Of a stretch of DNA of 64,000 nt, positions 37,525 to 62,008 are shown in pieces (position 1 is the first letter of the stretch; each line of letters begins with the position of its first letter). This DNA comes from Ampullaceana balthica (Eukaryota; Mollusca; Gastropoda; Lymnaeidae): the NCBI GenBank assembly GCA_944989445.1, contig CALYLW010000733.1, forward strand, positions 62,001 through 126,000, given 5' to 3'. Both the position numbers and the translations under genes were made by a program. The notes below the pieces were generated by a model, which was not told the origin of the DNA, made no database searches, and worked only from the letters and a program-made list of their open reading frames with translations.

Positions 37525-37594
37525 ATGAAGGCAAACATAAAGTTACTACATTTGTTCTTTGTCATCAAATTCCTCTTTGTGACTTCAGTGAAGG
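37525..37594 (+). CDS. Gene 3, exon 1: signal peptide
   Basis: Start codon at 37525 with A at -3; the exon ends before donor gtaagt in phase 1. It encodes MKANIKLLHLFFVIKFLFVT then SVK and the first base of a Gly codon. Lys residues at the start, then a leucine/phenylalanine-rich core and a small-residue end (TSVKG) form a typical secretory signal, cleaved around residue 21-24. A second ATG at 37518 is out of frame. It joins in phase to the CTLD exon at 41271. Confidence 0.85.
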
Positions 37595-40065: not shown

Positions 40066-40145
40066 TACAAACCATAGATAAGCGTAGGACGCAATAATCT
40101 TCTGTATAGAAGGAGCGTCTGTAAACAGATAAGATAAGATAAGAT
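40066..40145 (+). mobile_element. 80-bp LINE 3' tail between two R1 copies
   Basis: acaaaccatagataagcgta, ggacgcaataatcttctgta, tagaaggagcgtctgtaaac and agataagataagataagata follow each other exactly as at the end of the LINE at 18600-19855. It is an extreme 5' truncation inserted at the R1 boundary. Confidence 0.85.
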
Positions 40146-41270: not shown

Positions 41271-41356
41271 GAAATTGTTATTGGCTGGGCTCAGAACTTA
41301 TTGATGAAAAGTGTTTGCTATACAATGAAAACATTGTCAGCTACAACGAAGCAAAG
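41271..41356 (+). CDS. Gene 3, CTLD exon 1
   Basis: Acceptor ...ttttatttcag, donor gtaatt, 86 bp, phase 1 to 0. It encodes NCYWLGSELIDEKCLLYNEN then IVSYNEAK (residues 25-52). C-Y-W and the following ...Y-N-E-A-K are the first strand and start of helix 1 of a CTLD. The first codon completes Gly with exon 1, so the mature protein starts almost directly with the CTLD. Confidence 0.85.
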
Positions 41357-42116: not shown

Positions 42117-42201
42117 ATGTTTTGTCTTTCAATGGGTGGAGTTTTGGCAACGGTAACCTCCAGAAATCAAATAATTGCCATGGCGGCTCGATCACGAAAT
42201 A
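42117..42201 (+). CDS. Gene 3, CTLD exon 2
   Basis: Acceptor ...atcttctaag-type (tatctctaag), donor gtgagt, 85 bp, phase 0 to 1. It encodes MFCLSMGGVLATVTSRNQII then AMAARSRN (residues 53-80): helix 1 cysteine, GG-x-L-A-x-V core and helix 2. It continues NEAK|MFCLSMGG from the previous exon. Confidence 0.85.
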
Positions 42202-43456
42202 GTGAGTTACCTTAACTAAGTCTCAGTAATTATAACTAATTTTTTTTCCAAATACTTACAAAACCATAATATAGCAGCTGCTAGCTCCTTCCAAAATTAG
42301 TGTTTGGCGGTAAAAATCTCTCAAATGTATCAATTTAGGAAACACATACATGACACTTTTGTATATTTGCTTTCTGTTCTCCGAATTCCAAGCACATGTT
42401 GAGCAGCCTGCAAGTTGTCATCTCCACATCAACATTAGAAACACCCTTTGACAATAAGAGCTAGCATGATCAATGGTCTTTATTGTATTGAAGAAATACA
42501 TAAACATTATGTTGTTGCGATTAAATATAATGAATTTGTTGTTAGAATTTTAATGAGGGATCGTGGTCCTAAATACAATTAGCCGTGATACGTAACTTTT
42601 TTTTTCAATTAGCCGTGTCTAGTTAAGTATAGCTATGATTATTATAGTTACAGTTACAAACTTGATTAGTAACTTAAACTCCGAGAAAAAAGTGAGCCCT
42701 GGCGGAAACTACCTCGTAGTGATTATATATTTATCCCACAATTGAGGATTATCACGGAGTTACTTGCGTAGGTTTTACACGAGAAGGGATATCAGCCTGC
42801 CTTACATATGGCAACGCCAAGTAGACGGTGGCGCGCCTGTTGACGAAGTGCCAGACGCTTACCGGTTACTTGGACGGGTTGGTCCCAACAACTGTGGAGC
42901 GATATCTTTATGACGCTGCAAATAAGTTACGAGATGAGTCCCAAGAGTGGACGCTTGACACTAAAAGAGAGTTCCATATGTTAAGTATTTTTTTTAAAAA
43001 ACAAACGGTCTAATAACTTACAGTTAAAATGAGCCGCGTCTATAAACATAATGCTATGATAGTGACACAATAAAAATGTGTTTAGTAATCCAAGATATGG
43101 TGATGTACCTTCAGTTTGGTTCTGCTAAAAATAATAAAATAAAATTGGATCGCATTCATTTCTTGGTTTGAATGTTTGGACAACTTTTAGCCATTGTACT
43201 TATTAGCACTGACAACAATCACAGTTACTTATTATGTAACGTATTTTTTACATTTTGTAATGACCTATATAAAAGATTTAAATGGTTTATGGTTCCCAAA
43301 TAACATTGAAAGGGAAGCTTTGTACATATCTATTAGATTGTGCATTGTAATTTAAAGTAATATTTTTAAAAATAAATAAAATATATGCTCCAAACATCGT
43401 GTCTAAAGTTTAAAGGTGAACTTTTACTTTTAAAATATTTTTTTTTAAACATTAAG

Positions 43457-43681
43457 GTATTTGGATTGGTGCCACTAATGCCAATCCCTTGAGAGAGTAC
43501 CTGTGGGAGGACACTGGCTCATCAGCTGCTATTGACCTGGCCGGACTGTGGGACGGCACAAACGGAAGGCCTAGTGGATCAGCTAACTCATGTGCCATGA
43601 TACATGTTAGTTACAATGTTACCTCTGGGGTTTGGGACGAAAATTGCAGTTTTGCCGCATCATTTGTGTGTATGGAGAAAG
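43457..43681 (+). CDS. Gene 3, CTLD exon 3
   Basis: Acceptor ...aaacattaag, donor gttggt (weak), 225 bp, phase 1-1. It encodes IWIGATNANPLREYLWEDTG, then a GLWDGTNGRPSGSANSCAMI segment, and ends VWDENCSFAASFVCMEK (residues 82-155). It holds the WIG strand, long loop, and the last three conserved cysteines. WDEN-C stands where WND-x-C is usual and RPS replaces EPN/QPD, so classical calcium/sugar ligands are only partly present. It is homologous to 1850-2083. After it the protein enters the repetitive stalk. Confidence 0.9.
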
Positions 43682-44286: not shown

Positions 44287-44343
44287 GTGAAACTAAAATG
44301 AATATTACAACAGAATCTTCAGTTATACCAACAAATGTTACAG
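44287..44343 (+). CDS. Gene 3, stalk exon A1
   Basis: Acceptor ttattttcag, donor gtaagt, 57 bp, phase 1-1. It encodes GETKMNITTESSVIPTNVT, with two N-glycosylation sequons (NIT, NVT). Any number of such symmetric exons can be added or lost without shifting the frame. Confidence 0.85.
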
Positions 44344-44628
44344 GTAAGTAAGCACATCGAAGAAATAAGTTATTGTTCTTTCTTCAAATGATATAATACA
44401 CTTTCTTAAATGTAAATTATATTAATAAAATAATATTTGTTATAAATGTGTAAAAAATTTGAAGTTTTTTCAAAATCTGATACTTCTTATGCTTTTAATT
44501 ACAAAAAAAAATGTACAAAATTTTAATTTTTTCCGAGAAAACTATGTTAAAGTATAACATTTGATTTAAAAAGACAATTATTTTATATTCAATTCTTTTA
44601 AATATTTTTTAAACAAATTATAATACAG

Positions 44629-44691
44629 TAACAAATATGACACAAGAAATAACTCAGCAATCAAATGCCACAGCACAGAACATAAGTACAA
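44629..44691 (+). CDS. Gene 3, stalk exon B1
   Basis: Acceptor ttataatacag, donor gtaagt, 63 bp, phase 1-1. Encodes TNMTQEITQQSNATAQNIST; sequons NMT, NAT and NIS. The only B copy with TQEIT rather than TEEIT. Confidence 0.85.
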
Positions 44692-45228
44692 GTAAGTGTC
44701 AGTTTAGTTGTGTAAAAATGTAAATAAGCACTTTTAAAAAAAATATTCATATGTTAACTATCATCATAATTTACATTTTCATCCAATAAAATTCTCATCA
44801 TAAGAACTTTATCATATTACAGAGACAATTTTTAAAATGCAAAACTATTAATTTGTTGATTTTTTTATATAATATGATGGAAAAATATTAAGTAACATTT
44901 AGAAATTGCCAAATTGAAAAACAAAAATAAATACTAAAGATTATATTACAAGAATAAAATATTTACTCAAATCTTTTGAACGATATAATTAATATGATTA
45001 TATAAAAGGAAGTGTTTTTTTTTAAAGATTTGGAGAAATTAAATTTTAGTTATTTTCCTTTTAATATTGTTATTGTTCAGATATTTTGTAATAAAAGAAA
45101 AATTTTAATTAAATATAATTTTTTTTCATGAAATGCGCACAAATTTATAAAAAAGTCAATAACGCTCTAAAATAAGAAAATCATTTTTTTAATAATTAAA
45201 TATATAAAAAACTTATTGTTATTTTCAG

Positions 45229-45285
45229 ATGAATTAGCCATGAATGTTACAACAGAAGCTTCTGTGACATCATCAAATATTACAG
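45229..45285 (+). CDS. Gene 3, stalk exon C1
   Basis: Acceptor ttattttcag, donor gtaagt, 57 bp, phase 1-1. Encodes DELAMNVTTEASVTSSNIT; sequons NVT and NIT. Confidence 0.85.
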
Positions 45286-45577
45286 GTAAGTAAGCATATC
45301 GTAGAGAAAAGCCATTGTTATATCTTCAACTTATATAATACACTGTCTTAAATGTAAGTCATATTAATAAAAGAATATTTGTTATAAATGCGCAACAAAT
45401 TTAAAGTTTTTCAAAATCTGATAGATATTACACATTTAATTACAAAAATGTATATAAATGTTACTTTTGCAAAGAACAATGTAGTAAAATTTTTATTTTG
45501 AAGTGAAATATTTGATTGAATAAAAAATAAATGTATATTCAATATTTTATCATATTTTTTAGTAAATTATAATACAG

Positions 45578-45640
45578 TTACAAATATAACAGAAGAAATA
45601 ATTCTGCAATTAAATACTACTACAAAGAACATAAATAACA
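45578..45640 (+). CDS. Gene 3, stalk exon D1
   Basis: 63 bp, phase 1-1, donor gtaagt; encodes TNITEEIILQLNTTTKNINN. A better acceptor (tttttag) lies 15 bp upstream and is also in frame; it would add NYNT-type residues. Confidence 0.8.
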
Positions 45641-46194
45641 GTAAGTGAGACTTATTTTGTGTAATAATGTCACCAAGTACTTTTTAAAATATATATGTAT
45701 TTAAACTGTAATTATTATGAATATATTCATCAATTAAAACTTTAAGGATTGCTATCTTTTGAATAAGACACATTTTAGTTTACAAGACTTTGTATTTGTT
45801 GACATTACTAAACATATGATTGATCTGTATCAATTTACATCAATAAAATAACCTAATTGTGCTAAGTATTTTAAAACATTAAATTATAATTTTTAAACAA
45901 TAACTTTTTTTTCTTAATATATAATTAATACGCTTGAATTAAAGTCAGTTGTTGTTTTTCTTTTTATTTGTTGTTGTTTCATTTTTAGGTTTTTCGGAAA
46001 ATTAATCTTAGTTACTTTCCTTTTAATATAGCTGTTATTCAACTATTTAGTATTCAAAGAAAACTTTTACTTTCATTTACATTTTTAAAAAAATGAAATT
46101 CACTTTATGCTTTTGTAAATACATTTTATAAAAAAATGAAATTTTAAATTTTGTTAAAAATGAAATTGCAAAAACTTTTTTTAAAAATTTTCAG

Positions 46195-46251
46195 GTGAAT
46201 CAACAATGAATATTACAACACAAGCTTCAGTTATACCAACAAATGTTACAG
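46195..46251 (+). CDS. Gene 3, stalk exon A2 (A' type)
   Basis: Acceptor attttcag, donor gtaagt, phase 1-1. Encodes GESTMNITTQASVIPTNVT. Confidence 0.85.
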
Positions 46252-46550
46252 GTAAGTTAGCACATCGTAGAAATAAGTTATTGTTCTTTCTTCAAATGAT
46301 ATAATACACTTTCTTAAATGTAAATTATATTAATAAAGTAATATTTGTTATAAATGTGTAACAAATTTGAAGTTTTTTTTTAAAACTCTGATATATCTTA
46401 CGCTTTCAATTACAAAAAAATGTACAAAATATTAGTTTTGCAAATAAAACTTTTGATGTTTTTTTTCTGTTAAAGTAGAGCATTTGATTTTAATAGACAA
46501 TTATTTTATATTCAATTTTCATAAATATTTTTTAACAAATTATAATACAG

Positions 46551-46613
46551 TAACAAATATGACAGAAGAAATAACTCAGCAATCAAATACTACTACAAAG
46601 AACATAAGTACCA
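46551..46613 (+). CDS. Gene 3, stalk exon B2 (B' type)
   Basis: Acceptor ttataatacag, donor gtaagt, phase 1-1. Encodes TNMTEEITQQSNTTTKNIST, three sequons. Confidence 0.85.
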
Positions 46614-47140
46614 GTAAGTGTGACCTATTTTGTGTAAAAAAGCACTTTTTAGAAAATATATATATTATAACTGTAGATAGTATAAATACATTCATCAATT
46701 TAAACTTTAAGATTGTTATCCTCTTCATATGACAAATTTTAAAATAAAAAACTCTTTTATTTGTTGACATTCTATATGGTATGAGTTTTTTGTATCAATT
46801 TACAATTTACATCAATAAAATACCGAACTTCTACAACGTATATTAGCAGTTTGTTTTTATTTATTTTTAAATCTTAATTTAATTGTTTCAAAATATAAAA
46901 TTAATATGGTTATATTAAAGTCAATTTTTTTTTATATTAGGCTTTTGAGAAAATTAATATTAGTTAGGTTCCTTTAAACATAGCTGCATTTCAGCTATTT
47001 TGTATTCAAAGAAAATATTTAATTTAATATCATTTCTAAAATAAAATTTACTAAATGGTTTTGTAAATACATTATGTCATAAAATGAAATTATTAATTTT
47101 GTTAATAATTAAATTGTAATAATTTTTTTGTTATTTTTAG

Positions 47141-47197
47141 GTGAATCTACAATGAATATTACAACAGAATCTTCAGTTATACCAACAAATGTTACAG
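47141..47197 (+). CDS. Gene 3, stalk exon A3
   Basis: Acceptor ttatttttag (TAG instead of the usual CAG), donor gtaagt, phase 1-1. Encodes GESTMNITTESSVIPTNVT. Opens the second higher-order unit. Confidence 0.85.
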
Positions 47198-47496
47198 GTA
47201 AGTTAGCAAATCGCAGAAATAAGTTATTGTTCTTTCTTCAAATGATATAATACACTTTCTTAAATGTAAATTATATTAATAAAGTAATATTTGTTATAAA
47301 TGTGTAACAAATTTGAAGGTTTTTTTTAAAAATCTGATATATCTTACGCTTTTAATTCTAAAAAAGTGTACAAAACATTAGTTTTGCAAATAAAACTTTT
47401 GATGTTTTTTTTCTGTTAAAATAGAGCATTTGATTTTAAAAGACAATTGTTTTATATTCAATTTTCATAAATATTTTTTAACAAATTATAATACAG

Positions 47497-47559
47497 TAAC
47501 AAATATGACAGAAGAAATAACTCAGCAATCAAATGCCACAGCACAGAACATAAGTACAA
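47497..47559 (+). CDS. Gene 3, stalk exon B3
   Basis: Encodes TNMTEEITQQSNATAQNIST; donor gtaagt, phase 1-1. Confidence 0.85.
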
Positions 47560-48099
47560 GTAAGTGTCAGTTTAGTTGTGTAAAAATGTCAATAAGTAAT
47601 CTTTAAAAAAAAATATTATTGTTAACTGTCATCATAATTTACATTTTCATCCAATAAAATTCCCATCATAAGAACTTTATCATATTACAAAGACAATTTT
47701 TAAAATGGAAACCTCTTAATTTGTTGACTTTTTTTTATATAATATGATGGAAAAATATTAAGTTACATTTAAAAATTGCCAAATTAAAAAACAAAAATAA
47801 ATACTAAAGATTATATTACAAGAAGAAAATATTTACTCAAATCTTTTGAACGATATAATTAATATGATTATATAAAAGTGAGTGTTTTTTTTTAAAGATT
47901 TGGAGAAATTTAATTTTAGTTATTTTCCTTTTAATATGGTTATTGTTCAGATATTTTGTAATAAAAAAAAATTTTTAATTAAATATAATTTTTTTTCATG
48001 AAATGCGCACAAATTTATAAAAAAGTCAATAACGCTCTAAAATAAGAATATCATTTTTTTTATAATTAAATATATATGAAAACGTATTGGTATTTTCAG

Positions 48100-48156
48100 A
48101 TGAATTAACCATGAATTTTACAACAGAAGCTTCTGTGATATCATCAAATATTACAG
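48100..48156 (+). CDS. Gene 3, stalk exon C2
   Basis: Encodes DELTMNFTTEASVISSNIT; the first sequon is NFT here. Acceptor tattttcag, donor gtaagt. Confidence 0.85.
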
Positions 48157-48449
48157 GTAAGTAAGCATATCGTAGAAAAAAGCTATTGTTATATCTTCAA
48201 CTTATATAATACACTGTCTTAAATGTAAGTCATATTAATAAAAGAATATTTGTTATAAATGCGCAACAAATTTAAAGTTTTTCAAAATCTGATAGATATT
48301 ACACATTTAAATTACAAAAATGTATATAAATGTTACTTTTGCAAAGAACAATTTAGTAAAATCTTTATTTTCAAGTGAAATATTTGATTGAATAAAAAAT
48401 AAATGTATATTCAATATTTTATCACATTTTTTAGTAAATTATAATACAG

Positions 48450-48512
48450 TTACAAATATAACAGAAGAAATAATTCTGCAATTAAATACTACTACAAAGA
48501 ACATAAATAACA
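48450..48512 (+). CDS. Gene 3, stalk exon D2
   Basis: Same protein as D1 (TNITEEIILQLNTTTKNINN). The in-frame upstream acceptor tttttag is again present 15 bp before. Confidence 0.8.
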
Positions 48513-49068
48513 GTAAGTGAGACTTATTTTGTGAAATAATGTCACCAAGTACTTTAAAAAAAATATAGACTATATGTATTTAAACTGTAATTATTATGAA
48601 TATATTCATCAATTAAAACTTTTAGGATTGCTATCTTTTGAATAAGACACATTTTAGATTACAAGACTTTCTATTTGTTGACATTACTAAACATATGATT
48701 GATCTGTATCAATTTACATCAATAAAATAACTAAATTGTGCCAAGTATTTTAAAATATTAAATTATAATTTTTAAACAATAACTTTTTTTTCTTAATATA
48801 TAATTAATACGCTTGAATTAAAGTCAGTTGTTGTTTTTTTTTATTTGTTGTTGTTTCATTTTTAGGTTTTTCGGAAAATTAATCTTAGTTACTTTCCTTT
48901 TAATATAGCTGTTTTTCAGCTATTTAGTATTCAAAGAAAACTTTTACTTTCATATAATTTTTTTAAATGAAATTCAATTTATGCTTTTGTAAATACATTT
49001 TATAAAAAAATGAAATTTTAAATTTTGTTAAAAATAAAATTGAAAAAACTTTTTAAAAAAATTTTCAG

Positions 49069-49125
49069 GTGAATCAACAATGAATATTACAACACAAGCT
49101 TCAGTTATACCAACAAATGTTACAG
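49069..49125 (+). CDS. Gene 3, stalk exon A4 (A' type)
   Basis: Encodes GESTMNITTQASVIPTNVT, identical protein to A2. Confidence 0.85.
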
Positions 49126-49425
49126 GTAAGTTAGCTCGTCGTAGACAAAAGCTATTGTTCTTTTTTCAACTCATATAATACGTTGTCTTAAAAGTAAGTT
49201 ATACTAATAAAAGTATATTTGTTATAAATGTGCAACAAATTTGAAGTTTTTCAAACTCTGATAGATCTTACACTTTTAATAACAAAAATGTACAAAAATG
49301 TTTGTTTTACTACTTTTACAACGAAAGATTTTGTAAACTCTTTCTTTTAAAGTGAAATATCGGATGAATAAACATTAAACTTATATTCAATATTTTATCA
49401 TATTTTTTAGCAAATTATAATACAG

Positions 49426-49488
49426 TAACAAATATGACAGAAGAAATAACTCAGCAATCAAATACTACTACAAAGAACATAAGTACCA
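49426..49488 (+). CDS. Gene 3, stalk exon B4 (B' type)
   Basis: Encodes TNMTEEITQQSNTTTKNIST. Unlike B1-B3 its upstream intron resembles that of D exons and offers tattttttag 15 bp earlier, in frame, adding NYNTV. Confidence 0.8.
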
Positions 49489-50016
49489 GTAAGTGTGACC
49501 TATTTTGTGTAAAAAAGCACTTTTTAGAAAATATATATATTATAACTGTAGATAGTATAAATACATTCATCTATTTAAACTTTAAAGATTGTTATCCTCT
49601 TCATATGACAAATTTTAAAATAAAAAACTCTTTTATTTGTTGACATTCTATATGGTATGAGTTTTTTGTATCAATTTACAATTTACATCAATAAAATACC
49701 GAACTTCTACAACGTATATTAGCAGTTTGTTTTTATTTATTTTTAAATCTTAATTTAATTGTTTCAAAATATAAAATTAATATGGTTATATTAAAGTCAA
49801 ATTTTTTTTTATATTAGGCTTTTGAGAAAATTAATATTAGTTAGGTTCCTTTAAACATAGCTGCATTTCAGCTATTTTGTATTCAAAGAAAATATTTAAT
49901 TTAATATCATTTCTAAAATAAAATTTACTAAATGGTTTTGTAAATACATTATGTCATAAAATGAAATTATTAATTTTGTTAATAATTAAATTGTAATAAT
50001 TTTTTGTTATTTTCAG

Positions 50017-50073
50017 GTGAATCTACAATGAATATTACAACAGAATCTTCAGTTATACCAACAAATGTTACAG
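50017..50073 (+). CDS. Gene 3, stalk exon A5
   Basis: Encodes GESTMNITTESSVIPTNVT; opens the third higher-order unit. Acceptor ttattttcag, donor gtaagt. Confidence 0.85.
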
Positions 50074-50372
50074 GTAAGTTAGCACATCGTAGAAATAAGT
50101 TATTGTTCTTTCTTCAAATGATATAATACACTTTCTTAAATGTAAATTATATTAATAAAGTAATATTTGTTATAAATGTGTAACAAATTTGAAGTTTTTT
50201 TTTAAATCTGATATATCTTACGCTTTTAATTACAAAAAAAATGTACAAAATATTAGTTTTGCAAATAAAACTTTTGATGTTTTTTTTTCTGTTAAAGTAG
50301 AGCATTTGATTTTAAAAGACAATTATTTTATATTCAATTTTCATAAATATTTTTTAACAAATTATAATACAG

Positions 50373-50435
50373 TAACAAATATGACAGAAGAAATAACTCA
50401 GCAATCAAATGCCACAGCACAGAACATAAGTACAA
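50373..50435 (+). CDS. Gene 3, stalk exon B5
   Basis: Encodes TNMTEEITQQSNATAQNIST; donor gtaagt. Confidence 0.85.
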
Positions 50436-50969
50436 GTAAGTGTCAGTTTAGTTGTGTAAAAATGTCAATAAGTAATCTTTAAAAAAAAATTATGTTAACT
50501 GTCATCATAATTTACATTTTCATCCAATAAAATTCCCATCATAAGAACTTTATCATATTACAAAGACAATTTTTAAAATGGAAACTCTAATTTGTTGACT
50601 TTTTTTTATATAATATGATGGGAAAAATATTAAGTTACATTTAAAAATTGCCAAATTAAAAAACAAAAATAAATACTAAAGATTATATTACAAGAAGAAA
50701 ATATTTACTCAAATCTTTTGAACGATATAATTAATATGATTATATAAAAGTGAGTGTTTTTTTTAAAGATTTGGAGAAATTTAATTTTAGTTATTTTCCT
50801 TTTAATATGGTTATTGTTCAGATATTTTGTAATAAAAGAAAAATTTTAATTAAATATAATTTTTTTTCATGAAATGCGCACAAATTTATAAAAAAGTCAA
50901 TAACGCTCTAAAATAAGAATATCATTTTTTTTATAATTAAATATATATAAAACGTATTGGTATTTTCAG

Positions 50970-50983
50970 ATGAATTATCCATC
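50970..50983 (+). pseudogene. Gene 3, broken stalk exon C3
   Basis: After an intact acceptor (tattttcag) only AT GAA TTA TCC AT remains. The sequence then jumps to ctttaaaatgcaaaactctt, which belongs to the intron after a B exon. The exon has lost its end and donor, so it is not usable. The next C exon is at 51858. Confidence 0.85.
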
Positions 50984-51017
50984 TTTAAAATGCAAAACTC
51001 TTAATTTGTTGACTTTT

Positions 51018-51480
51018 TAAATCCCTTATATTAACGTCGCGGCCGTCTCTATCTGTCGTCATCTCATCATCTCATGGGCGGGCGGAAAAACAAAAGTCTA
51101 AAATGACCCACTTCCAGTTATCTGATCGAGCTGAAATTTGACACACGGACCCGTCTTACCTAACAATGCATCGTATAAAAATTTTAGATCGATCCATTTT
51201 ACCGTAATTAAATTAATGCATTTTTAGTTTTTCCTTATATGAGGTATGTAATTCAAATTCAAGGTTTGTTATTGTTTTTTTCCCACGTGAAAGTTTGAGT
51301 TGACGCTTAGACGTCGACCGTCGTGCCGAAACCCCCTCACGTCCCATCCCTCGTTAAAAGACAGAGGACATCACTCGGTGTCAGTCTGTAAATGCTTGTC
51401 GCGTTTGAAAATAATCAATACTGTTAGTTATGACTCATATAAGGGATTTATAGTCAAAAACTTTGTTATTACGGGTTTGT
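51018..51480 (-). repeat. R1-family repeat inserted in the mini-exon array
   Basis: Plus view starts aaatcccttatattaacgtc and ends ataagggatttatagtcaaa, aactttgttattacgggttt. It interrupts a post-B intron between tttgttgactttt and tatataatatgatgg, which are adjacent in other units. This is the only R1 copy inside the array, so it arrived after amplification. Confidence 0.85.
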
Positions 51481-51857
51481 TTTTATTTTTATATAATATG
51501 ATGGAAAAATATTAAGTTACATTTAAAAATTGCCAAATTAAAAAAACAAAAATAAATACTAAATATTATATTACAAGAATAAAATATTTACTCAGATCTT
51601 TTGAACGATATAATTATTATTATTATATAAAAGTAAGTGTTTTTTTTCTAAGATTTTGGAGAAATTTAATTTTAGTTATTTTCCTTTTAATATGGTTATT
51701 TTTTTTAGATATTTTGTAATAAAAAATTTTTTTAATTAAATATAATTTTTTTTTCATGAAATGCGCACAAATTTATAAAAAAGTCAATAACGCTCTAAAA
51801 TAAGAATATCATTTTTTTTAATAATTAAATATATATGAAACGTATTGTTATTTTCAG

Positions 51858-51914
51858 ATGAATTAGCCATGAATGTTACAACAGAAGCTTCTGTGATATC
51901 ATCAAATATTACAG
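51858..51914 (+). CDS. Gene 3, stalk exon C4
   Basis: Encodes DELAMNVTTEASVISSNIT; acceptor ttattttcag, donor gtaagt. Functional C exon of the third unit. Confidence 0.85.
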
Positions 51915-52207
51915 GTAAGTAAGCATATCGTAGAAAAAAGCTATTGTTATATCTTCAACTTATATAATACACTGTCTTAAATGTAAGTCATATTAATAAA
52001 AGAATATTTGTTATAAATGCGCAACAAATTTAAAGTTTTTCAAAATCTGATAGATATTACATATTAAATTACAAAAATGTATATAAATGTTACTTTTGCA
52101 AAGAACAATTTAGTAAAATCTTTATTTTCAAGTGAAATATTTGATTGAATGAAAAAATAAATGTATATTCAATATTTTATCACATTTTTTAGTAAATTAT
52201 AATACAG

Positions 52208-52270
52208 TTACAAATATAACAGAAGAAATAATTCTGCAATTAAATACTACTACAAAGAACATAAATAACA
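52208..52270 (+). CDS. Gene 3, stalk exon D3
   Basis: Same protein as D1 and D2, with the in-frame upstream alternative acceptor. Confidence 0.8.
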
Positions 52271-52827
52271 GTAAGTGAGACTTATTTTGTGAAATAATGT
52301 CACCAAGTACTTTTAAAAAAAATATAGACTATATGTATTTAAACTGTAATTATTATGAATATATTCATCAATTAAAACTTTTAGGATTGCTATCTTTTGA
52401 ATAAGACACATTTTAGATTACAAGACTTTCTATTTGTTGACATTACTAAACATATGATTGATCTGTATCAATTTACATCAATAAAATAACTAAATTGTGC
52501 CAAGTAATTTAAAATATTAAATTATAATTTTTAAACAATAACTTTTTTTTCTTAATATATAATTAATACGCTTGAATTAAAGTCAGTTGTTGTTTTTTTT
52601 TATTTGTTGTTGTTTCATTTTTAGGTTTTTCGGAAAATTAATCTTAGTTACTTTCCTTTTAATATAGCTGTTTTTCAGCTATTTAGTATTCAAAGAAAAC
52701 TTTTACTTTCATATAATTTTTTTAAATGAAATTCAATTTATGCTTTTGTAAATACATTTTATAAAAAAATGAAATTTTAAATTTTGTTAAAAATAAAATT
52801 GAAAAAACTTTTTAAAAAAATTTTCAG

Positions 52828-52884
52828 GTGAATCAACAATGAATATTACAACACAAGCTTCAGTTATACCAACAAATGTTACAG
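52828..52884 (+). CDS. Gene 3, stalk exon A6 (A' type)
   Basis: Encodes GESTMNITTQASVIPTNVT. Confidence 0.85.
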
Positions 52885-53184
52885 GTAAGTTAGCTCGTCG
52901 TAGACAAAAGCTATTGTTCTTTTTTTAACTCATATAATACGTTGTCTTAAAAGTAAGTTATACTAATAAAAGTATATTTGTTATAAATGTGCAACAAATT
53001 TGAAGTTTTTCAAACTCTGATAGATCTTACACTTTTAATAACAAAAATGTACAAAAATGTTTGTTTTACTACTTTTACAACGAAAGATTTTGTAAACTCT
53101 TTCTTTTAAAGTGAAATATCGGTTGAATAAACATTAAACTTATATTCAATATTTTATCATATTTTTTAGCAAATTATAATACAG

Positions 53185-53247
53185 TAACAAATATGACAGA
53201 AGAAATAACTCAGCAATCAAATACTACTACAAAGAACATAAGTACCA
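53185..53247 (+). CDS. Gene 3, stalk exon B6 (B' type)
   Basis: Encodes TNMTEEITQQSNTTTKNIST; upstream in-frame acceptor as in B4. Confidence 0.8.
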
Positions 53248-53777
53248 GTAAGTGTGACCTATTTTGTGTAAAAAAGCACTTTTTAGAAAATATATATATT
53301 ATAACTGTAGATAGTATAAATACATTCATCTATTTAAACTTTAAAGATTGTTATCATCTTCATATGACAAATTTTAAAATAAAAAACTCTTTTATTTGTT
53401 GACATTCTATATGGTATGAGTTTTTTGTATCAATTTACAATTTACATCAATAAAATACCCGAACTTCTACAACGTATATTAGCAGTTTGTTTTTATTTTT
53501 TTTTAAATCTTAATTTAATTGTTTTCAAAATATAAAATTAATATGGTTATATTAAAGTCAATTTTTTTTTATATTAGGCTTTTGAGAAAATGTAATATTA
53601 GTTAGGTTCCTCTAAACATAGCTGCATTTCAGCTATTTTGTATTCAAAGAAAATATTTAATTTAATATCATTTCTAAAATAAAATTTACTAAATGGTTTT
53701 GTAAATACATTATGTCATAAAATGAAATTATTAATTTTGTTAATAATTAAATTGTAATAATTTTTTGTTATTTTCAG

Positions 53778-53834
53778 GTGAATCTACAATGAATATTACA
53801 ACAGAATCTTCAGTTATACCAACAAATGTTACAG
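53778..53834 (+). CDS. Gene 3, stalk exon A7, weakened donor
   Basis: Encodes GESTMNITTESSVIPTNVT, but the donor is gtagtt where the other seven A copies have gtaagt (one A lost). The exon may be spliced less efficiently or skipped; skipping keeps the frame. Confidence 0.7.
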
Positions 53835-54133
53835 GTAGTTAGCACATCGTAGAAATAAGTTATTGTTCTTTCTTCAAATGATATAATACACTTTCTTCAA
53901 TGTAAATTATATAAATAAAGTAATATTTGTTATAAATGTGTAACAAATGTGAAGGTTTTTTTTTAAATCTGATATATCTTACGCTTTTAATTACAAAAAA
54001 AATGTACAAAATATTAGTTTTGCAAATAAAACTTTTGATGTTTTTTTTTCTGTTAAAGTAGAGCATTTGATTTTAAAAGACAATTATTTTATATTCAATT
54101 TTCATAAATATTTTTTAACAAATTATAATACAG

Positions 54134-54196
54134 TAACAAATATGACAGAAGAAATAACTCAGCAATCAAATGCCACAGCACAGAACATAAGTACAA
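54134..54196 (+). CDS. Gene 3, stalk exon B7
   Basis: Encodes TNMTEEITQQSNATAQNIST; donor gtaagt. Confidence 0.85.
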
Positions 54197-54719
54197 GTAA
54201 GTGTCAGTTTAGTTGTGTAAAAATGTCAATAAGTAATCTTTAAAAAAAAATTAATTATGTTAACTGTCATCATAATTTACATTTTCATCCAATAAAATTC
54301 CCATCATAAGAACTTTATCATATTACAAAGACAATTTTTAAAATGCAAGACTTTTTTTTATATAATATGATGGGAAAATATTAAGTTACATTTAAAAATG
54401 CTAAATTAAAAAACAAAAATAAATACTAAAGATTATATTACAAGAAGAAAATATATACTCAAATCTTTTGAACTAAGTAATAAATATGATTATATAAAAG
54501 TAAGTGTTTTTTTTAAAGATTTTGGAGAAATTTAATTTTAGTTATTTTCCTTTTAATATGTTTTTTTTTATAGATATTTTGTAATAAAAGAAAAATTTTA
54601 ATTAAATATAATTTTTTTCATGAAATGCACACAAGTTTATAAAAAAGTCAATAACGCTCTAAAATAAGAATATCATTTTTTTATAATTAAATATATATAA
54701 AACGTATTGTTATTTTCAG

Positions 54720-54776
54720 ATGAATTAGTCATGAGTGTTACAACAGAAGCTTCAGTGATATCATCAAATATTACAG
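54720..54776 (+). CDS. Gene 3, stalk exon C5
   Basis: Encodes DELVMSVTTEASVISSNIT; the first sequon is lost (MSVT for MNVT). Confidence 0.85.
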
Positions 54777-55056
54777 GTAAGTAAGCATATCGTAGAGAAA
54801 AGCTATTGTTATTTCTTCAACTTATATAATACTTTTTCTTAAATGTAAGTCATATATTTTAAAAGAATATTTTTTTATAAATGCGCAACAAATTGCTAGA
54901 TTTTTAAAATCTGATAGATATTACACTTTTAATTACAAAAATGTATATAAATGTTACTTTTGCAAAGAAAAATTTGTTTAAAATCTTTATTTACAAGTGA
55001 AATATTTGATTGAATAAAAAATAAATTTATATTCAATATTTTATCATATTTTTTAG

Positions 55057-55134
55057 CAAATTATAATACAATTACAAATATAACAGAAGAAATACTTCAG
55101 CAATCAAATACTACTACAAAGAACATAAATAACA
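55057..55134 (+). CDS. Gene 3, stalk exon D4, upstream acceptor
   Basis: 78 bp, phase 1-1. The proximal acceptor used in other B and D exons (ttataatacag) is mutated to ttataatacaa, so splicing must use tattttttag 15 bp earlier. Reading stays open: NYNTITNITEEILQQSNTTT then KNINN. This supports real use of the upstream acceptor in the family. Confidence 0.8.
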
Positions 55135-55650
55135 GTAAGTGTAACTCATTTAATGTAATAATGTCACCAAGTACTTTATACAAAAATCTATGTATTTAAA
55201 CTGTAATTATAAATATATTCATCAATTAAAACTGTAAGGATTGCTATCTTTTTAATAAGACAAATTTTAAATTAAAAGACTTGTATTTGTTGACATTACT
55301 ACACATATGAATAATATGATTATAATTGATATGTATCAATTTACATCAATAAAATAACTAAATTGTGCCAAGTATTTTAAAACATTAAATTATTATTTGT
55401 TTTAAACAAGAAACTTTTTAATAAAAAAATATGTAATTAATATGCTTGAATTAAAGTCAGGTTTTAAAGGTTTTTCAGAAAATTAATCTTTGTTACGTTC
55501 CTTTTAATATAGCTGTTTTTCAGCTATTCTGTTTTCAAAGAAATTTTTTAATTTCATTATTTTAAAAAAAAAGGATATTTACTTTATGCTTTTGTAAATA
55601 CATTTTTTTGTTAATAATGAAATTGAAAAAAACTTTTTTAAAATTTTCAG

Positions 55651-55707
55651 GTGAATCTACAATGAATATTACAACAGAAGCTTCAGTTATACCAAAAAAT
55701 GTTACAG
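55651..55707 (+). CDS. Gene 3, stalk exon A8
   Basis: Encodes GESTMNITTEASVIPKNVT; a hybrid of A and A' types (TEAS) and the last A exon. The following exons are more diverged. Confidence 0.85.
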
Positions 55708-55828
55708 GTAAGTTAGCTTATCGTAGAAAAAAGCTAATGTTCTTCCTTCAACTGATATAAAAAATCGTCTTAAATGTAAGTTATACTAATAAAAGTATTT
55801 TTTGTTAAGGTACATATATCATTTTCAG

Positions 55829-55888
55829 ATAATTCAACAATGACTAGTGGTGAGACAAACGCTTCGGTTACACCAGCAACAATTACAT
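55829..55888 (+). CDS. Gene 3, stalk exon E1
   Basis: Acceptor catattttcag-type (atcattttcag), donor gtaagt, 60 bp, phase 1-1. Encodes NSTMTSGETNASVTPATIT: one or two sequons and Thr-rich. Related to A but older. Confidence 0.8.
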
Positions 55889-56460
55889 GTAAGTAATTAC
55901 ATCATGGAAACGCTATTGTTCTACCGTCAATTGATAGAAAATCCTTTCATAAACTTAATTTTTATTAATAACCAATTTTTAAAATGGGAAAATTAGAAAT
56001 ATTTTGAAACGAATTGACATTTAATTTTTTAGATATTTAAAAATATTAGTTGTTTTTTTCTCTTAAGTAAAATATTGCATTGAATATGATTTAAATTTAT
56101 AACACATTATGTAAACAATGTTTAGCAAGTTATGATACATTAACAAAAGAGACACTGCAAAAATGAAATTTAATAATCAAATACCTTTTCAAAGTTAAAA
56201 TGTATTGGAAAATTGTCAGTATCGTATGTTTTAGACTACATAGACAGTAATATAATGAATTAAATTTCTTGCAAATTGGAAAAAAAGGAACATTAAAAAA
56301 TTATTCGTAGCTTAATAGCTTAACGCTATTAAAAAATATTATAAAACTGTTCCGCATAAAGACATTTTTTATCCCCGGTTCAGTAGTAAAATAACATAAA
56401 TACCTTAATATGGCTTTTATCTAGCTTTAAAAATAAAATTATATATAAATAGTAGTTAAA

Positions 56461-56515
56461 TGCAAGACTAGATGTAAGCGTAGGACGCAATTAATTATGA
56501 ACAGAAGGAGAATAT
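56461..56515 (+). mobile_element. LINE tail remnant in stalk intron
   Basis: gcaagactagatgtaagcgt followed by aggacgcaat and acagaaggag resembles the LINE 3' end. Similar remnants at about 57764-57815, 59035-59090 and 60047-60090 sit at equivalent places in later introns, so the insertion predates those duplications. Confidence 0.6.
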
Positions 56516-56524
56516 TTCACGGAA

Positions 56525-56577
56525 ATATTTCATAAAATGTTGATCTATATAATATAGATAAACATTTTATGAAATAT
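56525..56577. repeat. 53-bp near-perfect palindrome
   Basis: Arms 56525-56550 and 56552-56577 (atatttcataaaatgtt, then atctatat) are reverse complements with one mismatch and a single-base centre. Confidence 0.9.
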
Positions 56578-56667
56578 ATTTATTCCAAAATTAAGTAACT
56601 TAAAAAAATTTAAATAATTTATTTAGTGTGTAAATTATTAATGTATTTTATTTTATGTAATTTTCAG

Positions 56668-56724
56668 ATAAATCAACAATGAGTAGTGCTACAAGTGCTT
56701 CAGATACATCTGCATCAATTACAA
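56668..56724 (+). CDS. Gene 3, stalk exon E2
   Basis: Acceptor gtaattttcag, donor gtgagt, 57 bp, phase 1-1. Encodes KSTMSSATSASDTSASIT: Ser/Thr-rich with no N-glycosylation sequon, so this part of the stalk is mucin-like rather than N-glycosylated. Confidence 0.8.
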
Positions 56725-57103
56725 GTGAGTAAGATAATCGTGTGAAAGCTATAATTCTAGCTTCAACTGATAGAATACACTTTCAGAAACTTTATTTTTA
56801 TTAATATACATACATTTAGTCAAAAGGGGAAAAAATAGCAATATTTTGAAGCAGATAGTTATAATTAAAGATAAATATTGACAGATCCTTCGAATTTAAA
56901 AAAATGATTCGTTTTTCCCCACAAGTAAAATATTGAATTGACTATAGTTTATATTAATATCCAAATGTACATTTTAAAAAAAAATGATATTATTGATATT
57001 ATTAATATACGTTACTTAACTTAATTTTTTTTAAATTTGTATATTATTAAATGTATATACACATGTGTATTTTCAAATACATATACAATGAATATTCCAC
57101 CAG

Positions 57104-57139
57104 ACGCTTCAATGACTGTTACTGCAGGATCAAGTACAA
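57104..57139 (+). CDS. Gene 3, stalk exon F1, uncertain acceptor
   Basis: Encodes ASMTVTAGSST before donor gtaagt, 36 bp, phase 1-1 if the acceptor is ccaccag. By analogy with other exons the original acceptor would be gtattttca(g), which here reads caa, and would add TYTMNIPP. All three F copies keep an in-frame ccag at the same place, so a shortened exon is plausible. Confidence 0.5.
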
Positions 57140-57951
57140 GTAAGTATTTACATAATGGTAATGCTATTGTTCTAGCTTCATCTGACAGATAACCGTTTCA
57201 TAAACTTATTTTTTTAATTAATAACAATTTTTAAAGGGAAACAATTGGTGCTATTTTGAAATGTACTATTTAATTTTTTTTTACCCACACTTGTTTGAAA
57301 AGTCTTAGATATTTAAAATATTAGTTTTTCTTTCTTCTCAAGTAAAATATTGCATTAAATATAATTTAAATTTATAACAAATAATGTAACAATTCTTGAA
57401 AAAGTTATGATAAATAATGTAACAATTCTTGAAAAAGTTATGATTCCGTAACAAAAGAGATGCCGCAAAAGATGTAATTAAAGAATTAAATAACTTTTCC
57501 AGTTTAAAAAGGTATTGCAATCAGCTGTCATTTTTATTTTTAGACGAAATATTAAATGACATAATTTATTATAATTTCTTAAAATTTGATGAAGAAAAAT
57601 AAAAGAAAAGAAACACATTCTTCGCAACTTAACGATATTAAAATTTCTTATAAAAATGTTAGACATAAAGCTACTTTTATTCCTGGTTCTATAAAACAAT
57701 AACATAATTACCTTAAAATGTCTATTTCTCGCTTTAAAAAATCAAATTGTAGTTACAATGGCAAGACTTGACAAAAACCATGTGTAAGCGTAAGAAAATT
57801 TTTCAGAAGGAGCACGTTGAAGAGAACAAAAATATGATATATCAGCATTTTATGAAATATATTGTATTCCCAAAATAAGTAACTTAAAAAAATTTAGTTA
57901 TTTTATTTAATGTGTAAATTATTAATGTACTTTATTTTATGTAATTTTCAG

Positions 57952-57999
57952 ATCAAATAGCATTGAGTAATGCTACAGTTACACCTGCAATGATTACTA
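57952..57999 (+). CDS. Gene 3, stalk exon G1
   Basis: Acceptor gtaattttcag, donor gtgagt, 48 bp, phase 1-1. Encodes QIALSNATVTPAMIT with one sequon (NAT). Confidence 0.75.
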
Positions 58000-58370
58000 G
58001 TGAGTGAGATAGTCATGCGAAAGCTATAGATTCTAGCTTCAACTGATAGAATACCCTTTCAGAAATTTAATTTTGATTAACATACATATATTTAGTCAAA
58101 CGAGGGAAAAAATAGCAATATTTTGAAGCAGATAGTTATAATTAAAGATAAATATTGACAGATCCTTCGAATTAAAAAAAAGATTCGTTTTTCCCCACAA
58201 GTAAAATATTGAATTGACTATAGTTTATATTAATATCCAAATGTACATTTTAAAAAAAAATGATATTATTAATATACGTTACTTAACTTAATTTTTTTAA
58301 AATTTGTATATTATTAAATGTATATACACATGTGTATTTTCAAATACATATACAATGAATATTCCATCAG

Positions 58371-58406
58371 ACGCTTCAATGACTGTTACTGCAGGATCAA
58401 GTACAA
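58371..58406 (+). CDS. Gene 3, stalk exon F2, uncertain acceptor
   Basis: Identical protein to F1 (ASMTVTAGSST), with ccatcag as the only acceptor-like site next to it and the same caa in the original place. Confidence 0.5.
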
Positions 58407-59225
58407 GTAAGTATTTACATAATGGTAATGCTATTGTTCTAGCTTCATCTGACAGATAACCATTTCATAAACTTTTATTATTTTTTTTATTAATAACCAT
58501 TTTTAAAAGGGAAACAATTTGTGCTATTTTGAAATGTACTAATTAATTTTTTTTTGACCCACACTTGTTTGAAAAGTCTTAGATATTTAAAATATTAGTT
58601 TTTCTTTCTTCTAAAGTAAAATATTGCATTAAATATAATTTAAATTTATAACAAATAATGTAACAATTCTTGAAAAATGTTATGATAAATAATGTAACAA
58701 TTCTTGAAAAAGTTATGATTCCGTAACAAAAGAGATGCCGCAAAAGATGTAATTAAAGAATTAAATAACATTTCCAGTTTAAAAAGGTATTGCAACCAGC
58801 TGTCATTTTTATTTTTTAGACGAAATATTAAATGATATAATTTATTATAATTTCTTAAAATTTGATGAAGAAAAATCAAAGAAAAGAAACACTATCTTCG
58901 CAACTTAACGATATTAAAATTTCTTATAAAAATGTTAGACATAAAGCTACTTTTATTCCTGGTTCTATAAAACAATAACATAATTACCTTAAAATGTCTT
59001 TTTCTCGCTTTAAAAAATCAAATTGTAGTTACAATGCAAGACTTGACAAAAACCATGTGTAACCATAAGAAAATTTTTCAGTTGGAGCACTTTTAAGAGA
59101 AAAAAAAATGATATATCAGCATTTTATGAAATATATTGTATTCCCAAAATAAGTAACTTTAAAAAAATTAATTATTTTATTTAATGTGTAAATTATTAAT
59201 GTACTTTATTTTATGTAATTTTCAG

Positions 59226-59273
59226 ATCAAATAACAATGAGTAATGCTACAGTTACACCTGCAACGATTACTA
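59226..59273 (+). CDS. Gene 3, stalk exon G2
   Basis: Encodes QITMSNATVTPATIT; acceptor gtaattttcag, donor gtgagt. Confidence 0.75.
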
Positions 59274-59654
59274 GTGAGTGAGATAGTCATGCGAAAGCTA
59301 TAGATTCTAGCTTCAACTGATAGAATACCCTTTCAGAAATTTAATTTTGATTAACAAACATATATTTAGTCAAAGAGGGAAAATTAGCAATATTTTGAAG
59401 CAGATATTTATAATTAAAACAAAACTTTGACATTTCCTTCAAATAAAAAAAAGTGCTTTGTTTTTCCTCTTGATGTAAAATATTGAATTGACTATATTTT
59501 AAATTATAACGAAATATTAAAAAATGTGTAAAATGTGATATATAGAATATACGTTAATTAACTTTATTTAATTTTTTAAAAATAAATTTGTATATTATTG
59601 AATGAATATTAAAATATGTATTTTAAAATGAATCAACAATGAATATTGCACCAG

Positions 59655-59690
59655 ACGGTTCAATGACTGTTACTGCAGCAACAGGTACAA
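59655..59690 (+). CDS. Gene 3, stalk exon F3, uncertain acceptor
   Basis: Encodes GSMTVTAATGT after gcaccag; donor gtaagt. The original acceptor region reads attttaaaatg, also without AG. Confidence 0.45.
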
Positions 59691-60210
59691 GTAAGTAATT
59701 ACATCATGGTAACACTATTGCTCAAGCTTCATCTGATAGAAAACCATTTCATTAACTTAATTTTTATTAATAAACATTTTTAAAAGGAAAGAAATTCGCA
59801 TTATCCTAAGCCTAAGAAGAATGTATTTTCATTGGACCCACAATTGTTTGAAATACCTTATTTTTTGAAAGAAAGAATAAAATTCTTCATTGATTGATAA
59901 TATTTAAAAAATATAATTAACTTATTTGAGATAGAGCCAGGCTTTAAAGAAAAGTACTCTTAGTTTCGTTTATATGACTGTTTGCTGGCTTCTTTACTGA
60001 AAGAAAATATTAAATTATTTATATTTAAACTGTAGTTATAATACAAGACTAGCAAAAACCATGGGTTAAGTGTAAGAAACTACAATGTTTTGTCCAGAAT
60101 TTATGGAATGTAATTTATGCCTCTCCCCCCAATTATTTTTTTTTACTTTAATGTATTAATTTATTAATTTTGTATATTTTTGGATGTATATAGGTGTATG
60201 TAATTTTCAG

Positions 60211-60273
60211 ATGAAACAAATATGAATATGGCAACAAGCGCTTCAGTTACAGCTACACCTGCAACAATGACAA
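60211..60273 (+). CDS. Gene 3, stalk exon H1
   Basis: Acceptor gtaattttcag, donor gtaagg, 63 bp, phase 1-1. Encodes ETNMNMATSASVTATPATMT, Thr-rich without a clear sequon. Confidence 0.75.
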
Positions 60274-60602
60274 GTAAGGACGCAGAGCTCGAGCTTGATC
60301 TAATTGAATACCCGGTCTTAAACATACTTTTTTTTTATAAATAGACATTTATTTTTTAAATGGGGAAAGTTTTGCAATATTTTTAAAACTTATAGATAGT
60401 AAAAGTTTAAACAAAAATGAAAAATTAATTTCATTTTTTAAAAATCTATAAATGCCTTAGTTTTCAAACAAATATATCACTATTTATTTCTTCTCATTTA
60501 AAATAGTGCATTTATTTATTTTTTTTAAATATTGGATACAAATTTTATTTATATTATCAAATTATGATACATTAAAAAAATTTAAAAACAAAAACAAAAA
60601 AG

Positions 60603-61019
60603 TAGGGCTGCGTAAATTAACGATTATTTAATCGGTTGATAGTTACAATTTTGATTGATTAAAATGAATTTTAGCAATTAAAATTCAATTAAAATGTAAG
60701 ACAATTTTTTTTTAAATTACGGTGTTTTATTAATTTTTTTAAATTGCTCACTTTTCCCTCGTATTATTATTTATTTAGGCAGTCATACGTAAACAGAAAA
60801 AGGTTTTCTTCCTTATTTCTTGCATAGGAGAGCGAATTTGCTATGGTACGTCACAGAATTTGGGAGCCATGGAATTATAGCGACTGAACCGATTTCGTGA
60901 AAAAATGAATCGCGACTTAACGGGATCTATATCTGCATTATAAAAACTATAATTAATGGTTAATTAATCGATTAATTTGTACGAATACCGAATATTATTT
61001 TTAATCAGCACCATCCCTA
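60603..61019 (+). mobile_element. Non-autonomous hAT-like element
   Basis: Left end tagggctgcgt and right end agcaccatcccta are an imperfect inverted pair of TAGGG type. Flanking caaaaaag and acaaatag may be a decayed 8-bp duplication. The inside is rich in attaatcg motifs, as around 29650 and 30400. Confidence 0.55.
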
Positions 61020-61258
61020 ACAAATAGTAATATTTGAATACATGTATTGTTTATTTTTAAAAATATATTTATTATAATAATGGATACAATTTTCTACCCT
61101 GTAAAATTCTTTTTGTAATACAAAGTAACTTGTTAATAAGATATTTTTATGTTTTATACTGCCTACATTGTAACATAATAAATTGAAATTACAGAAAGAC
61201 TGGTAAAAAAAAGAAAAGAATAAAAACGTCATTACTAGATACCATTACAAAATGTAAT

Positions 61259-61447
61259 TCATATTTTAAACATTAATTCTTCACGAATATATGGTGGCAA
61301 GGCAGTCATAGTCGCGACGTCGAAATACTTTCCACCATTATCATCATTTACTTCCGAGAATCTCCTCATATCTCTCCTCGAGTTTACAATGCCGGTCAAG
61401 ATTTGTCTATATACCTGCTCTTTTGCGGTCCTTCCGATCATAGCCAT
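61259..61447 (-). CDS. Candidate small intronless gene, 62 residues
   Basis: Minus strand, ATG at 61447 in a good start context (gtaATGG), stop before aattac. The protein starts MAMIGRTAKEQVYRQILTGI, is charged, and ends PPYIREELMFKI. It has mixed amino-acid use and clearly higher GC than its surroundings, unlike chance frames here. An 8-bp TGACGTCA lies ~104 bp upstream and AATAAA-like motifs follow the stop. No signal peptide or membrane segment is evident and I do not recognise the family. It could be a nested gene, a retrogene, or the 3' part of a transposed gene. Confidence 0.45.
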   Translation of the reverse strand: MAMIGRTAKEQVYRQILTGIVNSRRDMRRFSEVNDDNGGKYFDVATMTALPPYIREELMFKI

Positions 61448-61550
61448 TACGAATTTCTATTGCCTTTCACACGTGATGACTTTCTGGTGCCATCTATTGA
61501 CAAAGTCGGTATGTCCACGTACATTTCACAGTCACCTAATCACACTGATG

Positions 61551-61558
61551 TGACGTCA
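61551..61558. promoter_or_regulatory. CRE-like palindrome TGACGTCA
   Basis: An exact TGACGTCA, the consensus bound by CREB/ATF-type factors, ~104 bp upstream of the candidate minus-strand gene. Could be chance. Confidence 0.35.
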
Positions 61559-61619
61559 CTTTGACACTATCCTGATAAACATATAGAACCACATTTCCAA
61601 CAAACTCTAATGAACGAAC

Positions 61620-61890
61620 GGATTCCGCAGAAGAATTTCAATATAGCATCTATATATATAATTTACCAGAACAAGCACAAGACGAGTACAAATGAGCTTA
61701 ACGAATAACCCTCGCCAGGGTCGGCCAATCACAGTTTATGCTTTGTGAGCTGTGGTGCAGGGTGAGGGGCTTGTAGCTAACAACCAACAATGCGTCGACG
61801 GTGATGTAATTTGTGTCCGTTATCCCCCCTTTCTTTGCACTATCTGTGAGCAAGTCTGCGGCGTATGCTACGCCGCGGGTCAAATCTAGT
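61620..61890 (-). repeat. R2-family repeat, inverted
   Basis: On the minus strand it starts ctagatttgacccgcggcgt, agcatacgccgcagacttgc, tcacagatagtgcaaag and ends with cataaactgtgattggccga and the tail. It is the best-preserved 5' end of the family. Confidence 0.75.
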
Positions 61891-61948
61891 TTTACTTACT
61901 TATTCATTTTGTATATTAATAATGTACAATAAATTATGCAATTTTCAG

Positions 61949-62008
61949 ATAAATCAACACTGAATAGTGCAACAGTTACACTCACAGTTACACCATCGAC
62001 AATTACAA
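61949..62008 (+). CDS. Gene 3, stalk exon I1 (last seen)
   Basis: Acceptor gcaattttcag, donor gtaagt, 60 bp, phase 1-1. Encodes KSTLNSATVTLTVTPSTIT, Thr-rich. The gene continues past this point; no transmembrane, anchor or stop exon was found before the window ends. Confidence 0.75.

Follow-up and report, generated by a model that had tools for sequence, protein, structure and literature searches.

A predicted sequon-rich tail built from an array of symmetric mini-exons in a lectin-like gene of Ampullaceana balthica

A 64,000-nucleotide stretch of the genome of the gastropod Ampullaceana balthica (assembly GCA_944989445.1, contig CALYLW010000733.1, forward strand) probably carries one gene for a secreted glycoprotein in which a C-type lectin-like domain (CTLD) is followed by an N-glycosylatable tail. 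This tail would be encoded by 32 symmetric mini-exons, and the exon array would have been built by tandem duplication and exchange. We call the whole stretch the window and give positions in its own numbering; with C733 for the contig, the window is C733:62001-126000. Extended coordinates continue this numbering across C733:126001-186000, and 124 kb were analysed in total. Searches of the snail's own genome covered 1.097 Gb in 3363 contigs.

Mini-exon Array and Gene Model

Between positions 44287 and 62008, behind exons for a leader and the CTLD (Table 1), we predict 32 mini-exons of 36-78 bp. The length of all 32 is a multiple of three, and all 32 are flanked by phase 1 introns on both sides. 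The original prediction, made from the letters of the window, had proposed about 32 such symmetric exons behind a single CTLD, and on both counts it holds. Their spliced frame is open, with no in-frame stop, and encodes 637 residues instead of the proposed ~610, which is 1911 of the 2433 nt of predicted coding sequence. The donor reads GTAAGT in 27 cases, GTGAGT in three, GTAAGG in one and GTAGTT in one; this last, damaged site belongs to exon A10.

Twenty-three of the mini-exons form an alternating series of twelve A exons (57 bp) and eleven B exons (five of 63 bp and six of 78 bp). They lie in units of ~950 bp that fall into three types: X (U1, U4, U7 and U10), Y (U2, U5, U8 and U11) and Z (U3, U6, U9 and exon A12). 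Together, they make up a six-exon repeat that is present in 3.8 copies. The claim that most exons belong to such a repeat applies to these 23; the nine exons on the 3' side (C, D, E1-E3, F1-F2, G and H, 36-63 bp) have diverged. By reading, E1-E3 use weaker acceptors inside the ancestral exon. Of the six B exons of 78 bp, five have a pair of in-frame acceptors separated by 15 nt and could be spliced as 63 or 78 bp.

Comparison of the units makes the mini-exons look coding, because no indel separates A or B exons in any of the 55 pairs of U1-U11 and no intronic window behaves like an exon. Across the alignment of 11 full units, the A and B exons lack gaps and keep an open frame in every unit. 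Among intronic windows of 57 columns from the same units, 15 of 722 are gap-free in all, 4 of 722 are open in all and 0 of 722 are both; for 63 columns the corresponding counts are 9, 0 and 0 of 710. Introns of different unit types are separated by 15-26 gaps and 21-31% substitutions. Substitutions are also less frequent in exons than in introns for U4-U6 (X-Z; 9/120 vs 236/798, p 3e-8), U5-U6 (Y-Z; 18/135 vs 172/786, p 0.022), U4-U5 (X-Y; 24/120 vs 239/807, p 0.03) and U10-U11 (25/120 vs 232/768, p 0.039).

We also scanned the 124 kb for exons with a good acceptor, a good donor, a length of 30-90 bp divisible by three, an open frame and at least 40% Ser, Thr or Asn. These strict criteria gave 20 calls within the 17.7 kb array, missing at least 12 of the 32 mini-exons, and no call on the plus strand of the other ~106 kb or on the minus strand of all 124 kb.

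Upstream of the array, the predicted gene begins with a putative signal-peptide exon, called by reading its hydrophobic leader. The spliced CTLD matches the Pfam Lectin_C profile over positions 4-106 of 107 with E 2.7e-11 (44.6 bits, cut-off 22.6), and a model that omits CTLD exon b reaches only E 1.1e-4. The best solved relatives by sequence in the PDB are CTLDs of oxidised-LDL receptor 1 (E ~1e-5). Classical sugar-binding lectin CTLDs require a pair of sequence motifs. Here, RPS and WDE occupy the places of this pair as judged by eye, and for this reason we describe the domain as a CTLD without claiming that it binds sugar as classical lectins do. A stop-containing fragment at 42776-42980, in the intron that separates CTLD exon b from exon c, resembles, by eye, the end of a CTLD exon.

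The gene probably extends beyond the window, where the best candidate for its last exon includes an in-frame stop. With this exon included, 37 exons splice to 2433 nt with one terminal stop and a predicted product of 810 residues.

Table 1. Predicted features of the CTLD gene and its surroundings (window positions unless marked otherwise)
Feature	Position	Strand	Remarks
Exon 1, signal peptide MKANIKLLHLFFVIKFLFVTSVK	37525..37594	+	ATG, hydrophobic leader, GTAAGT donor; ends phase 1
CTLD exon a	41271..41356	+	phase 1 in, phase 0 out
CTLD exon b	42117..42201	+	phase 0 in, phase 1 out; contains CLSMGGVLATV
CTLD exon c	43457..43681	+	WIGATNANP...WDENC...CMEK; ends phase 1
Higher-order repeat 1: A1 B1 A2 B2 A3 B3	44287..47080	+	unit alignment
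Higher-order repeat 2: A4 B4 A5 B5 A6 B6	47081..49956	+	unit alignment
Higher-order repeat 3: A7 B7 A8 B8 A9 B9	49957..53717	+	carries 878-bp insert
Partial higher-order repeat 4: A10 B10 A11 B11 A12	53718..55707	+	
Double-acceptor B exons	B2 (45563), B5 (48435), B6 (49411), B8 (52193), B9 (53170)		
Unit U3, recombinant	46135..47080	+	intron 1 X type; exons and intron 2 Z type
Insert in repeat 3	50920..51797	+	intron end + truncated A exon, dispersed repeat, duplicated intron half
Nine diverged 3' mini-exons C, D, E1, F1, E2, F2, E3, G, H	55829..62008	+	all phase 1-1
Probable decayed B-type exon relic	56117..56194	+	nhmmer E 0.011
Probable decayed exons 3' of H	extended 67029-67128 and 68636-68689		nhmmer E 0.001 and 3e-7
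Candidate last exon	C733:131301-131356		5.3 kb beyond window; in-frame stop; peptide NYTEMKTTSTFDTGFESI, starts like other mini-exons
Remaining hydrophobic phase-1 stretches	extended 86693, 88040, 94217		

Repeat History

The array appears to have grown and turned over via tandem duplication and exchange. Higher-order repeats 2 and 3 differ at 29 of 2864 positions (1.0%, insert excluded), and for this pair the introns are indeed nearly identical, as the original prediction had it for the array. The other pairs compared are less alike: 5.9% for repeats 1 and 2, 5.5% for 1 and 3, 6.3% for 3 and 4, and 7.1% for 2 and 4.

Past exchange between units, which had also been proposed, left its clearest trace in unit U3. 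Its intron 1 is 0.96-0.97 identical to those of U4, U7 and U10 and only 0.73 to those of U6 and U9, while its intron 2 is 0.98-0.99 identical to those of U6 and U9. Introns of different unit types are otherwise ~53-80% identical, and exons are better conserved between types. The points at which U3 switches lie at or beside its two exons. The insert in repeat 3 seems to mark a further rearrangement: it contains a truncated A exon whose acceptor is at 50970, a copy of a dispersed repeat of ~465 bp (51018-51482; 78.6% to 40145-40633 by blastn) and ~318 bp that duplicate half of an intron (93.4% to 50600-50913 by blastn). Exon relics within and beyond the 3' part of the array (Table 1) suggest that exons have been born and lost, with exon death on the 3' side. 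Two further relic candidates, at 57425-57462 and 58700-58766, scored E above 1 and were not counted.

The probable history begins with tandem duplication of an A plus B exon pair of ~950 bp. A triple of pairs, X-Y-Z (~2.87 kb), would then have formed, and this triple would have been copied, while units underwent gene conversion and unequal exchange with one another. Since none of the exons shifts the frame, a whole unit could be gained, lost, converted or skipped, and only the length of the tail and the number of its glycans would change.

Tail Composition

The predicted tail of 657 residues consists of 25% Thr, 14.5% Asn and 12% Ser, contains neither Cys nor Trp, and carries 66 N-x-S/T sequons. 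A non-redundant set of 16 exons has 22 sequons compared to 13.6 ± 2.7 after shuffling, and 13 of 5000 shuffles reached as many. The mini-exons would be transcribed and joined in one message, and the tail, presumably glycosylated and secreted, would serve the CTLD as a spacer or as a carrier of glycans.

The array had been proposed to encode a glycosylated stalk. The sequons agree with the first half of this description; a stalk implies an anchor, and since no convincing one was found downstream, the sequence may instead encode a secreted tail. Five hydrophobic phase-1 stretches lie at 62008-97000, none of them preceded by a Ser/Thr-rich lead. Two of the five were discounted by eye, the first as the antisense of a transposase-like stretch and the second as a TA run. 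The remaining three (Table 1) were listed but not examined further, and one of them, or a more distal exon, may yet encode an anchor. The C-termini of paralogues gave no convincing match to 62001-95000 (best E 0.5).

Comparison with Known Systems

Calling the array an undescribed diversification system, as the original prediction did, was too strong, because the same genomic design has been published for SmPoMuc of Schistosoma mansoni. In that system, a 27-bp exon lies in tandem units of ~1 kb with introns that are more than 94% identical (PMC2576457). Repeat number varies between individuals and between transcripts, with up to ~20 genomic copies and transcripts of 1-100 repeats, and the authors discuss unequal crossing over and gene conversion (PMC2576457). 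Both systems thus place a short, frame-neutral exon in tandem genomic units with very similar introns; the tract of variable length has predicted glycosylation there and the tail is rich in sequons here (PMC2576457). SmPoMuc repeats a single exon, exon 2, in its 5' part and belongs to a multigene family, whereas the snail array, predicted from genomic sequence, occupies one locus (PMC2576457). Two alternating exon types, a higher-order repeat of three pairs behind a CTLD and N-glycan sequons distinguish the snail gene.

The micro-exon genes (MEGs) of schistosomes offer a second comparison. Their exons measure 6-81 bp, mostly 15 bp and mostly multiples of three (PMC10526429). They share with the snail gene secreted proteins (predicted here) and many short exons of such lengths among long introns (PMC10526429). 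The two differ in product size, with 810 residues predicted here and 189 in the longest MEG protein (PMC10526429). MEGs are further characterised by conserved motifs behind the signal peptide (PMC10526429); in the snail gene, a CTLD follows the predicted leader. In our gene, mini-exons of 36-78 bp supply 1911 of the 2433 coding nt, a share of short exons characteristic of MEGs. To our knowledge, neither SmPoMuc nor the MEGs contain a CTLD, and we know of no MEG with a higher-order exon repeat of this kind.

The likeness to SmPoMuc is one of design. The design itself appears to be known already; the CTLD, the alternating exons, the higher-order repeat and the sequons seem to set this locus apart. 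Among the matches listed in the open-licence literature, none describes a CTLD gene with a mini-exon tail, and the CTL-domain G protein-coupled receptors of PMC12297450 follow a different design. Symmetric mini-exon arrays are a cheap route to changing the length of a protein without breaking it, and a mucin of a parasite is a well-documented example. If a lectin-type gene has the same build, with visible exchange of units, it would add a second system for measuring copy number, splicing and glycan load side by side.

Paralogues

A search of the genome with CTLD exon c returned at least 35 matches, of which 20 lie on contig C262, 6 on C1787, 3 on C733 (including the query) and 6 on four other contigs; these counts are lower bounds. 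Four pairs of C262 and C1787 matches have identical scores, perhaps because the assembly holds both haplotypes of a single cluster as separate contigs. Two paralogues on C262 encode a CTLD followed by a long Ser/Thr-rich open stretch. In one of them (C262:685977) this stretch ends with a short tail after a transmembrane segment, in the other (C262:783542) with a glycosylphosphatidylinositol (GPI)-like tail. On C733, the paralogue at 157029 shows, by eye, a single Ser/Thr-rich exon that is hydrophobic at its end, and QPD at the motif place. The neighbour at C733:63861 (CTLD exon at window 1861-2079) is followed by two tandem Ser/Thr-rich exon copies (6976-8340). Both copies look frameshifted by eye relative to a copy at L005:2052-2388, and this neighbour may be a pseudogene.

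The C262 cluster and both C733 paralogues share with our gene a CTLD followed by a Ser/Thr-rich tract, and by reading their last CTLD exon likewise starts in phase 1. Because two C262 paralogues and two C733 neighbours carry such tracts, a mucin-like tail seems to fit this gene family. The two C262 paralogues differ in that their tract is one long open stretch with a transmembrane or GPI-like end, where our gene has an array. This suggests that one gene family arrived at long Ser/Thr-rich tails in two ways, through a single stretch and through an exon array.

The mini-exons themselves appear to be private to this locus at the sensitivity of the peptide search, whose 19 matches (E up to 10) all lie within the array (C733:106277-117706). 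A DNA search with 57900-59300 gave six matches; four are in the array, and the other two, elsewhere in the genome, are only 38 and 52 bp long. The 2.9 kb repeat as DNA query returned two matches, the array itself not among them, and is thus uninformative on copies elsewhere.

Alternative Explanations

Several points weigh against the reading as one gene for a secreted CTLD glycoprotein. The gene model is a prediction from genomic sequence. Its last exon is called by acceptor, frame and stop only, and a weak donor inside that exon (GTATTT, by reading) would make it another symmetric exon. The exon-intron substitution tests cover five of the 55 unit pairs, which are not independent, and for U1-U2 the difference is not significant (29/120 vs 236/792, p 0.24). 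Relatives in other species, and hence cross-species conservation, were not found; two protein-database searches gave none at E 0.001 (7999 and 74 candidates), which says little about animals. Finally, some pairs show little or no constraint on amino acids: counted as the ratio of nonsynonymous to synonymous differences per site (pN/pS), it is 0.37 for U4-U6, ~0.8 for U4-U5, 1.2 for U5-U6, 1.1 for U1-U2 and ~2 for U6-U11, with ~26 synonymous sites, too few to judge positive selection. Combined with the absence of exon indels, this suggests that frame, splice sites and composition have been held more strictly than exact residues.

The weak constraint also lowers our confidence in this reading slightly and raises slightly that in a decaying pseudo-array, behind which the CTLD is expressed without a tail or the whole gene is dead. 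The damaged donor of A10, the truncated A exon and the exon relics would fit such decay. We nevertheless consider it improbable, since all 32 exons are open and in phase, the 55 pairs contain no exon indel, and CTLD and leader are intact. Equally little weight falls on an assembly artefact, in which repeats were inflated or collapsed, or two haplotypes joined end to end. The 1.0% between repeats 2 and 3 and the apparent retention of some haplotype pairs on C262 and C1787 could be so explained; the array contains no N, the insert and the U3 mosaic differ between repeats, repeats 1 and 4 are ~5.5-7% from repeats 2 and 3, and a DNA search of the genome with the CTLD exon gave one match. The exact copy number is that of the assembly and may differ in the genome itself.

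If the array does encode the tail of a secreted CTLD glycoprotein, its repeats might matter solely for tail length, as parts of a constitutively spliced long spacer whose copy number drifts neutrally within limits; the chance of this seems to us only a little short of even. In its favour, two C262 paralogues have a Ser/Thr-rich tail of ~520-680 residues in a single open stretch without an exon array, and the exons hold frame and composition more than exact residues. Such a spacer leaves unexplained why this gene took the mini-exon route, and the present data fit equally a diversification system, in which alleles vary in the number and order of six-exon repeats and transcripts in their exons, so that tail length and glycan load become specific to individuals or tissues. 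This we entertain as a tentative option. The frame-neutrality of all 32 mini-exons, the near-identity of two repeats, the recombinant U3, the truncated exon with its duplicated intron half, the in-frame acceptor pairs and pN at or above pS in some unit pairs (few sites) all speak for it, as does the precedent of SmPoMuc (PMC2576457). Against it stand its basis in the genomic sequence of one assembled copy and site numbers too small for a selection test. More specific still, and in our view rather unlikely, is a soluble immune-type lectin with a recombining exon-array tail, a repeat number that varies between alleles, variable exon sets, and exon islands at which exchange starts and ends; the U3 mosaic is what suggests this last role.

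Other Features

Three further observations concern the surroundings of the gene. The minus strand at window 18363-18462 probably holds a transmembrane exon, EELNIPTLYFMGTGVGLLVLHGIIILIIIKG, that belongs to a different membrane gene. Downstream of the array, also on the minus strand, L005:4440-5145 is open over a long distance and contains tyrosine motifs (YTNIED...); by eye it resembles a receptor's cytoplasmic portion. At window 10149-11586, a diverged tandem array has periods of 168, 328 and 496 bp.

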